Below, one piece after another: positions 6,323 to 10,197 of a stretch of DNA of 64,000 nt. The stretch lies in the NCBI RefSeq assembly GCF_018613235.1, contig NZ_JAGGQP010000027.1, positions 1 through 64,000 of the forward strand, read 5' to 3'. The position numbers and the translations under genes are program-made. This stretch comes from Bacillus sp. ISL-41 (GTDB taxonomy: Bacteria > Bacillota > Bacilli > Bacillales > Cytobacillaceae). Each line of letters begins with the position of its first letter. Positions within the stretch are counted from its first letter, which is position 1. The notes under the pieces were generated by a model, which made no database searches, was not told where the DNA came from, and saw only the letters and a program-made list of their open reading frames with translations.

Positions 6323-6880
6323 TTACTCATATAATGAAGGATCCACTAACGCTGTATACGCTAAGTAAATCACCATACAGATGGCCATTGTGATGAATCC
6401 CCACCCGAGGATTATCTGATCAACTACCAAATAATTGTTGCATAGCTGATCGTTTGCTTGAATATATAACCAGCCCATACCCAGGAAAATCACTGTGAAA
6501 AATCCAATGGTAAAATTTTTCCGGTTCTTGCTGAGTTTTTTCCAGGAATCTCTCAGAGGCACTCCCGCCAATAATGGCAGACTGATAAACTTGAATAATT
6601 CCACACTATTTCCCGTCAAGGCTTCATCCATTGTGCGCGGCAGCATCCAATAACCCATGATGATGATAAAAAGAAGGGTTCCTGGAATGCCCTCTTGATT
6701 ATATTTTAAAAAGAAATGAGGAAAGCGCTGCTGAAAAAACTGTCCCATGAAAAATCCGGCGATCACCAGCATCGGCATCTGCATATGCATGTGAATGATC
6801 ATGACGGATTCCATTAAGTTTGCAACAGGAGGAAGCATTAAACCGATTAAAAGTGCGAGCCCAAACAGAAACTGATTCAT
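6323..6880 (-). CDS. Met/His-rich multi-span membrane protein of the haem-copper cluster (185 aa)
   Basis: It has about five hydrophobic helices. The striking feature is a Met/His-rich stretch, MESVMIIHMHMQMPM (about residues 23-37), at the edge of the second helix, which looks like a Cu(I) or haem site. It starts two bases after the SCO gene's stop, so the pair is one unit. The context of SCO, CuA subunit and catalytic subunit suggests a role in copper delivery or assembly. I do not recognise a named family. Confidence 0.7.
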   Translation of the reverse strand: MNQFLFGLALLIGLMLPPVANLMESVMIIHMHMQMPMLVIAGFFMGQFFQQRFPHFFLKYNQEGIPGTLLFIIIMGYWMLPRTMDEALTGNSVELFKFISLPLLAGVPLRDSWKKLSKNRKNFTIGFFTVIFLGMGWLYIQANDQLCNNYLVVDQIILGWGFITMAICMVIYLAYTALVDPSLYE

Positions 6881-6882
6881 CT

Positions 6883-7524
6883 TTATTTCCTCCTGTCTGC
6901 TTCTAGAGTCTCTTTCAACTTATCTGCAGCCTCATTTACCTTTGTAAAATCCATTACGTTCACTAGTTCTCCCTGCCGGTCCACTAAATAAAACGCTGAA
7001 TTATGAGCGAAGTTCCCATTTCCATCTGGGATCACAATGACGCCAAACTTCTCCAGCAATGTGTCTAACTGATCCTGGTCCGGGATCCTGGCCATTCTCC
7101 ATGTCTCCCCATCACTTCCGAATAAATTCTTATACTTATTCAAAGTAGCTGGGTCATCTTTGCCCGGGTCAAAGCTTATGCTTAAAAAGACAATCTCCTT
7201 GCCTATATATTCACTGGGAAGCAAGTCGTACACCTGCGACATATTTTCTTCTAATTTAATGCATATCGTAGTGCAGCCTGTATAAATAAAAGTGATAAAT
7301 ACATACTTACCTTCAAATTCAGATATAGAATAGGACCGCCCCTCACTATCCTCAAAGGTTACTTGTGGAAACTGGGGCTGTTCCTCAACCAGCTTTGTCA
7401 CTCTTGCTGTCTCTGCTGTATAAGCAGTGAATCCGTCTGTTCCTGTATAAAATAAAAGCAGTCCAAACACCAATACAACTATACAGGAAATGAGCGTTTG
7501 CCGATTTTTGATCAAATTGATCAC
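6883..7524 (-). CDS. SCO1/SenC-family copper chaperone (213 aa)
   Basis: This is a thioredoxin-fold protein anchored by one N-terminal helix (about residues 12-28). It carries the copper motif CTTIC (Cys84, Cys88) and the third ligand His174 in NFAHNSAFYLVD. SCO proteins load or reduce the CuA centre of subunit II. The gene lies downstream of the CuA-containing subunit genes, separated from them by a repeat element (7661-7776), and is followed closely by the Met/His-rich protein gene. Confidence 0.92.
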   Translation of the reverse strand: MINLIKNRQTLISCIVVLVFGLLLFYTGTDGFTAYTAETARVTKLVEEQPQFPQVTFEDSEGRSYSISEFEGKYVFITFIYTGCTTICIKLEENMSQVYDLLPSEYIGKEIVFLSISFDPGKDDPATLNKYKNLFGSDGETWRMARIPDQDQLDTLLEKFGVIVIPDGNGNFAHNSAFYLVDRQGELVNVMDFTKVNEAADKLKETLEADRRK

Positions 7525-7778: not shown

Positions 7779-9464
7779 TTACCAAGTTTTAAATGGCGGC
7801 GATCCTGGAGGTGCATTCATGATCATGTCTGCGATTGGCAGGACGTAAGCCATTGAAACAACCAACAGCATGAGTACAACCCAGATTCCCCAGCGTTCTG
7901 TCCAGTATGGAGTTTTCGCTGCCCCTGCTACCTCTTCGGCAATTGGGAATTCTGTTACTCCCTTAGGTGCGAAGAACATGAGGTTGAACACCGCATAAAC
8001 TTGAAGGATGACGGCAATCAGCAATAAGCTTGCTCCTATTCCTACCGCTGCCATAAGAGGGTTCCATCCAAGTTTTTCCGCAAAGTCTCCATAGGTGGTG
8101 AAGGATGTTCTCCTTGGTGAACCGAAGAGACCTGCAGCATGCATGGAAATCGACATGATCACCATGCCTACAGTCCAAATGACGGTTTGAATCACGCCCA
8201 ATCTATTTATGGCAGGAGTCAACACCCGTTTTGATAAATATGGAACCAGCCAGTAACTGATGCCGAAGAATGTCATGATGACAGACATTCCAAGCGTCAA
8301 ATGGAAATGGCCTACCACCCACATCGTATTGTGTACAACCTGGTCCAATTGGTTTGTGCTTTGAGCAATTCCGCCGGCTCCAGCTGGAATGAATGCTACC
8401 ATGGCGATAAATGGCGACAGGAATCGTACATCTCCCCATGGCATCTTTTTATACCAGCCAACCAAACCCTTTCCGCCTTTCGCTCTTGCTGTACGTTCAA
8501 ATACCCTGAACATCGCGTATGCGGTCATTAAAGAAGGAAATCCAATAGCAAGGCTCATGAATACGTGCATATATTTGATGGACTCCGAAATACCAGGGTC
8601 AATGATCTGATGGTGGAATCCGCCGGTAATGTTCATGATCACTAACGGTATGACAACCATACGAGTCAAAAGATCATTCCAACGGTGTCCGCCGATTATT
8701 TTTGGTACGATTACATACCATGCTGATACAGCTGTCAGATACCAAATGTTCACGGCAGTATGTCCGAATGCCCAGAAAAGTGTACGCGCCAGCAATACGT
8801 TTATGCCGTCAGTCCAGCCAAGTGTCCATGGAATGATCATGAAAAGGACTTCTACTGCAACAAAAGCTGTTGCGCCGACTAACAGGACAAAGACACCAGT
8901 TGCAAAGAAGGCGAGAATCGGGAGATGTTGTCCTTTGTGATTCCTTCTCCAGTTTGCAACCTGAGTAAACGCTCCCAATGAAAGCATCCAGATTCCCAAT
9001 ACAATGAACACTAAGCCAAAGTAAAACATTGGCGATGCAGCCATTGGCGGGTAGAAGGTGTACATGACAGAGGCTTCATTCTTTAAAATCGGAATGACGA
9101 CCAAAACAAATCCAAAGATTTTCATCCAAAAACCGATCCATGCCATTTTCCTTACTTTAGGCAGCAATCCACCCAGCGTGTGAGAGAGTCCGGCATAAAA
9201 ATATCCAATGGTGAAAAACGCGGATAGTACAACAACTAACAGGATTCCGTGGGCCGTCAGCACCTGATAATAGTTAAGCCACGGAGGCAATTGCAGGACA
9301 CCGGCGCGGTTGAGACCTTGCAGCAAGCCCAGAAAGCCGCCGAGCAGCATAGCGATAAACGCGATAGATAAGTATGATTTCGAAATTCTTGCATCTTCGT
9401 TGCTGATTCCTAATACTTGATTAGTTTTTTGTTTAAATGAAGTTGATTTTAATGCAGACTGCAC
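7779..9464 (-). CDS. Haem-copper oxidase-superfamily catalytic subunit, ba3-like, Tyr-to-Asn (561 aa)
   Basis: This is a polytopic protein (about 13 helices) with the haem and CuB ligands of the superfamily. His72 (LTAHGILL) and the VVGHFHLTLG pair bind haems; His235 and the HHQIIDPG pair bind CuB. The overall pattern is ba3/B-type. The helix-VI motif reads GHTAVNIWYL where O2-reducing A and B families have GHPxVYFWLL. The Tyr four residues after the CuB His, normally cross-linked to it, is Asn239 (codon 8748-8750). Haem-copper NO reductases lack this Tyr. So the enzyme may be a CuA-type NO reductase or an unusual oxidase; sequence alone does not decide. It is the third gene after the small and CuA subunits. 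Confidence 0.85.
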   Translation of the reverse strand: MQSALKSTSFKQKTNQVLGISNEDARISKSYLSIAFIAMLLGGFLGLLQGLNRAGVLQLPPWLNYYQVLTAHGILLVVVLSAFFTIGYFYAGLSHTLGGLLPKVRKMAWIGFWMKIFGFVLVVIPILKNEASVMYTFYPPMAASPMFYFGLVFIVLGIWMLSLGAFTQVANWRRNHKGQHLPILAFFATGVFVLLVGATAFVAVEVLFMIIPWTLGWTDGINVLLARTLFWAFGHTAVNIWYLTAVSAWYVIVPKIIGGHRWNDLLTRMVVIPLVIMNITGGFHHQIIDPGISESIKYMHVFMSLAIGFPSLMTAYAMFRVFERTARAKGGKGLVGWYKKMPWGDVRFLSPFIAMVAFIPAGAGGIAQSTNQLDQVVHNTMWVVGHFHLTLGMSVIMTFFGISYWLVPYLSKRVLTPAINRLGVIQTVIWTVGMVIMSISMHAAGLFGSPRRTSFTTYGDFAEKLGWNPLMAAVGIGASLLLIAVILQVYAVFNLMFFAPKGVTEFPIAEEVAGAAKTPYWTERWGIWVVLMLLVVSMAYVLPIADMIMNAPPGSPPFKTW

Positions 9465-9479: not shown

Positions 9480-9941
9480 TTAATTAACGATGATTTTCGT
9501 GCTCATTGCCTGGTGTCCTGCACCGCAATATTCATTGCATAACACCAAATATTCACCTGGTTCATCAAACTTCTGTGATATTTTTTGGATATGCCCCGGC
9601 ATAACCATTGCGTTCAAATTTGTATTTGCCACCTGGAACCCATGAACAACATCTTTTGACGTTAAAGTGAAGTGGACAGTTGATCCAGCAGGAACTTCGA
9701 TTTCCATCGGTGTAAAACTAAATACCTGAAGCGTCATGACAACTTCATACTCATTTTCACCAATTTGTTTGATTCCCGGCTCATCAAACGGAGCTGTCTG
9801 ATCGACCTTTTGGGGATCGATCGTTTCTTTATGGCTTGGGGGCCCCATTCCCAAAGCCACTGCCTGGTACCCAGTAAATATCATGAAACCCATGATCATG
9901 CCAAAACTTAAAAACAGCCAGATTTTTTCATCTAAATGCAT
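9480..9941 (-). CDS. CuA-containing subunit II (153 aa)
   Basis: It accepts electrons from cytochrome c or another donor and passes them to the catalytic subunit. One N-terminal helix (about residues 8-30) anchors a cupredoxin domain outside the membrane. All CuA ligands are visible: His100, Cys135 and Cys139 (CNEYCGAGH), His143 and Met146. The short single-helix form is typical of ba3-like enzymes. It lies 15 bases upstream of the catalytic subunit and just downstream of the small subunit. Confidence 0.93.
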   Translation of the reverse strand: MHLDEKIWLFLSFGMIMGFMIFTGYQAVALGMGPPSHKETIDPQKVDQTAPFDEPGIKQIGENEYEVVMTLQVFSFTPMEIEVPAGSTVHFTLTSKDVVHGFQVANTNLNAMVMPGHIQKISQKFDEPGEYLVLCNEYCGAGHQAMSTKIIVN

Positions 9942-9956: not shown

Positions 9957-10124
9957 CTAAACTCTTGCCATATAAAGTCCAAATAGAATAAAGTACGTAG
10001 CAAGAATCACTGCTCCCACTACTCCAACCGATATCCAGGTCCCTACCTTTGTTTTCTCGTGACTGGTAACCTCCACGATTTCACCCTGAACTTCTGTCTG
10101 GGCCTTCCTGTCTGTCGCTTTCAA
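9957..10124 (-). CDS. Small single-helix subunit (IIa-like, 55 aa)
   Basis: Too short for standard ORF lists. TTG 10124 follows AAGGAGGGG by six bases; the stop is at 9957-9959, and the CuA subunit starts 15 bases on. The N-terminal half is polar; one helix follows (VGTWISVGVVGAVILATYFI, residues about 29-48), ending LFGLYMARV. This matches the form of subunit IIa of ba3 oxidases (a short helix ending in FGLF..R). It is the first gene of the haem-copper operon. Confidence 0.85.
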   Translation of the reverse strand: MKATDRKAQTEVQGEIVEVTSHEKTKVGTWISVGVVGAVILATYFILFGLYMARV

Positions 10125-10154: not shown

Positions 10155-10197
10155 ATCTTAATTGCGAATGATTATCAATGTAGTGAGTCAAATCACA
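10155..10197 (-). promoter_or_regulatory. Fnr-like activator site and -10 of the haem-copper operon
   Basis: The minus strand has TGTGATTTGACTCACT (10197-10182), an exact TGTGA-N6-TCACT, the B. subtilis Fnr consensus. A -10-like TAAGAT lies at 10160-10155. With a start near 10148 the site is centred at -41.5, the class-II activation position. A Fur-box-like stretch (10163-10177, 12 of 14 defined bases) lies between them and may be chance. Confidence 0.65.

Follow-up and report, generated by a model that had tools for sequence, protein, structure and literature searches.

A close, characterised relative of the locus analysed here comes from Bacillus (Schinkia) azotoformans. In strain LMG 9581, Heylen and Keltjens (2012, PMC3475470) describe an operon, cbaC1-cbaB1-cbaA1-senC1-cbaD1, and assign it to the purified CuA-containing nitric oxide (NO) reductase. 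The N-terminus of the subunit II encoded by this operon is matched there to that of the purified menaquinol/cytochrome c-dependent enzyme, qCuANOR, which had been isolated from NCCB 10003, a strain closely related to LMG 9581 (PMC3475470). The same report locates the published large-subunit N-terminus in the small gene cbaC, not in CbaA. It describes an enzyme with two haems b and CuA, which reduces NO with cytochrome c551 and menaquinol as electron donors (PMC3475470). The helix VI tyrosine of the Thermus thermophilus ba3 oxidase is given there as cross-linked, and in B. azotoformans CbaA1 the cross-linking tyrosine is reported to be replaced by asparagine (PMC3475470). Other reports describe CuANOR as electrogenic (PMC5826923, PMC10256718) and as taking its electrons from cytochrome c551 (PMC10256718).

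The former CuANOR now carries the name bNOR and is listed among the biochemically characterised NO reductases; it was counted in 123 of 433 Bacillota genomes holding NOR and/or Nos (PMC11388526). The names in use conflict: sNOR is a separate family in PMC11388526, whereas in Heylen and Keltjens the term "sNOR" denotes type I (PMC3475470). KEGG files bNOR as coxA (PMC11388526). General annotation calls the bNOR gene a cytochrome c oxidase, which hides a possible source of nitrous oxide (N2O) in soil bacilli.

Here we describe an operon of this kind in the window, the whole 64,000-nucleotide stretch of Bacillus sp. ISL-41 DNA that was analysed. The initial annotation had read its catalytic subunit as belonging either to a CuA-containing, ba3-derived NO reductase or to an oxidase with altered chemistry. 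The first reading is supported by an orthologue that shares the asparagine and is assigned in print to the purified CuA NO reductase; for the second we found no support. Judging from sequence, operon and phylogeny, we put at about 95% the probability that the cluster encodes bNOR (CuANOR, qCuANOR type I), in which a B-family oxidase of ba3 type has given rise to an NO reductase.

A five-gene operon matching that of Schinkia azotoformans

The operon lies on the minus strand in the order cbaC-cbaB-cbaA-senC-cbaD. The catalytic subunit I gene, cbaA (7779..9464), encodes 561 aa and matches Pfam COX1 with 259.8 bits. Upstream of it, cbaB (9480..9941) encodes the 153-aa CuA subunit II (Pfam COX2, 41.2 bits). 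The CbaB motif CNEYCGAGHQAM starts at residue 135 and supplies C135-x3-C139-x3-H143-x2-M146, with His100 upstream, a ligand pattern that we take to be that of a CuA site. The first gene, cbaC (9957..10124), would encode a small membrane peptide of 55 aa if, as we infer from the translation and the GGAGGGG ahead of it, the start is the TTG at 10124-10122; the S. azotoformans peptide has 46 aa in print. Following cbaA, senC (6883..7524) encodes a 213-aa SenC/Sco1-type protein (Pfam SCO1-SenC, 66.9 bits), presumably with a role in copper insertion. The last gene, cbaD (6323..6880), encodes a membrane protein of 185 aa, homologous to S. azotoformans CbaD. No family in Pfam or NCBIfam matched CbaD at E 0.001, yet the protein is conserved in the bNOR operon, and six helices are predicted for the S. 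azotoformans homologue (PMC3475470).

We compared the operon directly with that of the characterised enzyme. To fetch the S. azotoformans contig we back-translated the subunit II N-terminus in print into a DNA pattern, which gave a single match, contig42 of Schinkia azotoformans LMG 9581 (locus L057). All five genes are found there in the same order. The proteins of the window are 74% (CbaA, over 559 aligned positions), 80% (CbaB, over 152 positions), 55% (CbaC, over 38 positions), 65% (SenC) and 66% (CbaD) identical to their S. azotoformans counterparts. The CbaB N-terminus, MHLDEKIWLFLSFGMIMGFM, matches the published subunit II N-terminus at 17 of 20 letters, counted by eye. The helix VI segment AFGHTAVNIWYLT and the helix VII segment IMNITGGFHHQIIDPGISE of CbaA are identical in S. 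azotoformans CbaA1 (BAZO_06399). The two systems have in common the five-gene order, the asparagine at the tyrosine position and the CuA subunit; they are set apart by ordinary between-species divergence. Outside the operon, the neighbouring Dph6-like and MarR genes of the window have no counterpart within the 8,000 bases of the L057 locus compared.

Because the published large-subunit N-terminus was found in cbaC, CbaA is tied to the purified enzyme via its neighbours; what supports the link is subunit II, CbaC and the adjacency of the genes. The match to the S. azotoformans qCuANOR type I operon led us to abandon the idea of a new NO reductase family. The window enzyme belongs to a family already known and characterised, and the loss of the tyrosine is its already published signature.

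The catalytic subunit carries asparagine in place of the cross-linking tyrosine

Translation of the minus strand at 8733-8765 gives GHTAVNIWYLT. His235 is encoded by CAT at 8760-8762 and Asn239 by AAC at 8748..8750, the place of the cross-linking tyrosine of O2 reductases. The initial annotation had placed Asn239 four residues past the CuB-ligand His235, and translation and alignment confirm both its coordinates and its letters. The best solved-structure match of CbaA is the T. thermophilus ba3 oxidase, and in the alignment Asn239 pairs, free of gaps, with the cross-linking tyrosine of that protein (GHPIVYFW). CbaA has Asn239 where a ba3-type O2 reductase has a helix VI tyrosine cross-linked to the CuB histidine. 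All six haem and CuB histidines (H72, H235, H284, H285, H386 and H388) are present, so the earlier statement that every metal ligand is retained holds. With a B-family subunit I, asparagine in place of tyrosine and six histidines, CbaA has the features of bNOR.

In cbb3 oxidases a stand-in tyrosine comes from the next helix. We searched CbaA residues 259-297, a span taken around the helix VII stretch without predicted helix bounds, and found no tyrosine, in agreement with the earlier remark that a replacement is missing from that helix. The histidine ligands of CbaA by themselves are compatible with either copper or iron as the non-haem metal; in the B. azotoformans enzyme it is presumably iron.

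The window groups with the CuA NO reductase of S. azotoformans

We then surveyed 151 genomes of the family to which the window belongs, its own genome included. CbaA was matched in 130 of the 151 at E 1e-20 or better. At least 74 of the 151 genomes, counted by eye, hold a copy at 69-100% identity, and a second tier lies at 46-49% identity to CbaA among the matches listed. From the 74 of the first tier we examined 50, namely the window, 29 other best loci and 20 hand-picked from the remaining 44; together with S. azotoformans L057 these make up 51 asparagine rows. The 24 tyrosine rows comprise 20 hand-picked second-tier proteins, the ba3-type protein of the window's own genome (L003), S. azotoformans L060 and L061, and T. 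thermophilus ba3. A further S. azotoformans protein, L065, also has asparagine and was placed in neither group. Among the rows examined, the helix VI position is asparagine in all 51 of bNOR type and tyrosine in all 24 of ba3 type.

Phylogenetic trees were built from 33 rows (21 asparagine, 11 tyrosine and L065) and again from 32, omitting L065, the longest row; the helix VI column was kept in the alignment for both. In the 33-row tree a single branch splits asparagine from tyrosine rows (support 97/86, 100% of 200 bootstrap trees), a split that applies to the grouped rows only, with L065 outside both groups. S. azotoformans and the window share an 11-row fork in this tree (96/93). Without L065 the split rises to 100/100 and the shared fork to 97/93. 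Thus in both trees the window lies with the characterised enzyme and apart from the tyrosine-bearing ba3-type proteins, and the placement that the initial annotation had proposed as a check puts it with the CuA NO reductase of S. azotoformans. Both trees give T. thermophilus a long branch of unsure position, and the position of L065 is unsure too.

T. thermophilus ba3 (33.5% identity) and the tyrosine-bearing L003 (47.2%) are, like CbaA, subunit I proteins of the B family, and they share with it the six histidines and several residues of the K-path. Both differ from the window in having the cross-link tyrosine instead of asparagine, and Tyr244 of the K-path instead of valine. The qCuANOR type II protein of S. 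azotoformans (L065, contig 40) resembles the window in its asparagine at the same position and its six histidines, but is only 23.6% identical to CbaA. By contig and description, L065 is BAZO_04705 of PMC3475470, where type II is described as having a subunit II of two helices and a subunit I that is shorter.

A tyrosine is displaced along helix VI

Seven residues past His235, Tyr242 (codon 8739-8741) is present in all 51 asparagine rows and in none of the 24 tyrosine rows, all of which have leucine. We also followed T. thermophilus Tyr244, Tyr248, Ser261, Ser309 and Thr312, which we take to be K-path positions. Tyr248, Ser309 and Thr312 are retained in 51 of 51 bNOR rows. Tyr244 is retained in none of the 51 and is valine in the window (residue 246, codon 8727-8729), and Ser261 is asparagine in the window, with asparagine in 27 and serine in 24 of the 51. 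Because Tyr244 has become valine and Ser261 asparagine, a working K-path is not certain. The tyrosine shift along helix VI, with Tyr242 gained and the residue-246 tyrosine lost, is specific to the bNOR family. Tyr242 may be relevant to proton delivery. A bolder proposal, which we consider unlikely, is that the gain of Tyr242 and the loss of Tyr244 amount to the relocation of a phenol, by which either proton delivery or a radical site is restored for the chemistry of NO, and that this explains why bNOR is electrogenic, unlike cNOR.

Tyr242, invariant in the asparagine rows and missing from the tyrosine rows, could also be read in another way, as could the retention of the six metal-ligand histidines and of the K-path residues Y250, S311 and T314: the protein might be an O2-reducing ba3-type oxidase that lacks the cross-linked tyrosine and either recruits one from elsewhere, as in cbb3 enzymes, or works by altered chemistry. 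We regard this as highly improbable, since the orthologue with the same helix VI and helix VII motifs, at 74% identity, is assigned to a purified NO reductase, residues 259-297 offer no tyrosine, and the genome encodes other likely O2 reductases (L001, L002, L003 and L004). As bNOR, the window enzyme would be a clean case of a respiratory oxidase turned NO reductase with one active-site residue lost.

Proposed reaction

The membrane enzyme encoded by the cluster most likely converts NO to N2O. Its mechanism and substrate are read from the characterised homologue. Electrons would come from a membrane cytochrome c551 or from menaquinol, the cytochrome route running through CuA in CbaB, and would then pass by way of the low-spin haem of CbaA to the high-spin haem and to the non-haem metal, which is bound by three histidines. 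At this site two molecules of NO would be joined to form N2O. Because the His-Tyr pair is missing, O2 splitting of the kind that oxidases carry out would not be expected at this site. Protons would probably be drawn from the cytoplasm through the remnant of the K-path, and the reaction would be electrogenic, as reported for the B. azotoformans enzyme.

A dual use, with NO removal in micro-oxic conditions accompanied by some reduction of O2, appears quite unlikely. PMC11388526 repeats a suggestion that the B. azotoformans bNOR reduces NO aerobically, in micro-oxic settings, but the suggestion concerns NO and not O2. Moreover, the tyrosine is missing, and no sequence feature examined points to O2 chemistry.

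Genome context and a palindrome upstream of the operon

A palindrome, TGTGATTTGACTCAC, lies on the minus strand at 10183..10197, 58 bases before the cbaC start. It is the sole match to TGTGA-N6-TCAC within the window, where 0.48 would be expected by chance, and at least one copy arose in 29 of 100 shuffles. Of 31 bNOR loci, 18 have the exact core at the corresponding position and 13 do not; the window and the same-genus loci L009-L018 account for 11 of the 18. The S. azotoformans form carries one mismatch. Palindromes of this type presumably follow the Fnr site consensus, which weakly suggests TGTGATTTGACTCAC as a possible Fnr site for anaerobic control.

The 4.6-Mb genome has seven places matching PF00115, six of them above the cut-off. 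L001 and L002 are A-family proteins whose best solved matches are the aa3-600 quinol oxidase. The tyrosine-bearing ba3-type protein L003 is separate from the CbaA of the window, and L006 is a qNOR (1397 bits to the solved NO reductase 3ayf). L004 (C20:140094-141329), on the contig that also carries the window, is a cbb3-like catalytic subunit; its best solved-structure match is a cytochrome c oxidase (E 1.3e-78), followed by CcoN (1e-76). The helix VI motif of L004 is GHNAIG and a tyrosine precedes GPHH in the next helix, which we take to be the cbb3 oxidase pattern.

The genome also encodes an NrfA-type protein (C26:130488-131753, 416 bits) and NosZ (C51:2766-4505, 872 bits). The best matches in it to NirK (64.8 bits, cut-off 296.3), NarG (55.4 bits, cut-off 1084.15) and NapA (149.4 bits, cut-off 930.55) all fall below their cut-offs, and for this reason we infer the NO source; a divergent NirK or nitrate reductase is conceivable. 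The likely role of the window enzyme would be the respiration or removal of NO, which perhaps arises alongside NrfA-type nitrite ammonification, and NosZ would take the N2O further. With an NrfA-type protein and NosZ but no NirK above its cut-off, the strain is perhaps a nitrite ammonifier that both makes and consumes N2O. A similar gene set is described for Bacillus vireti, an nrfA-bearing ammonifier with a cba-type qCuNOR and NosZ, given as lacking nirS and nirK (PMC4719734, PMC10653820). By these accounts B. vireti has nar, whereas the NarG and NapA matches of the present genome lie only below the cut-offs.

The seventh PF00115 place, L007 (C51:19782-20048), is a short match below the cut-off (31.2 bits) in an open frame of 129 aa; it resembles L066 of S. 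azotoformans (32.3 bits, 151 aa).
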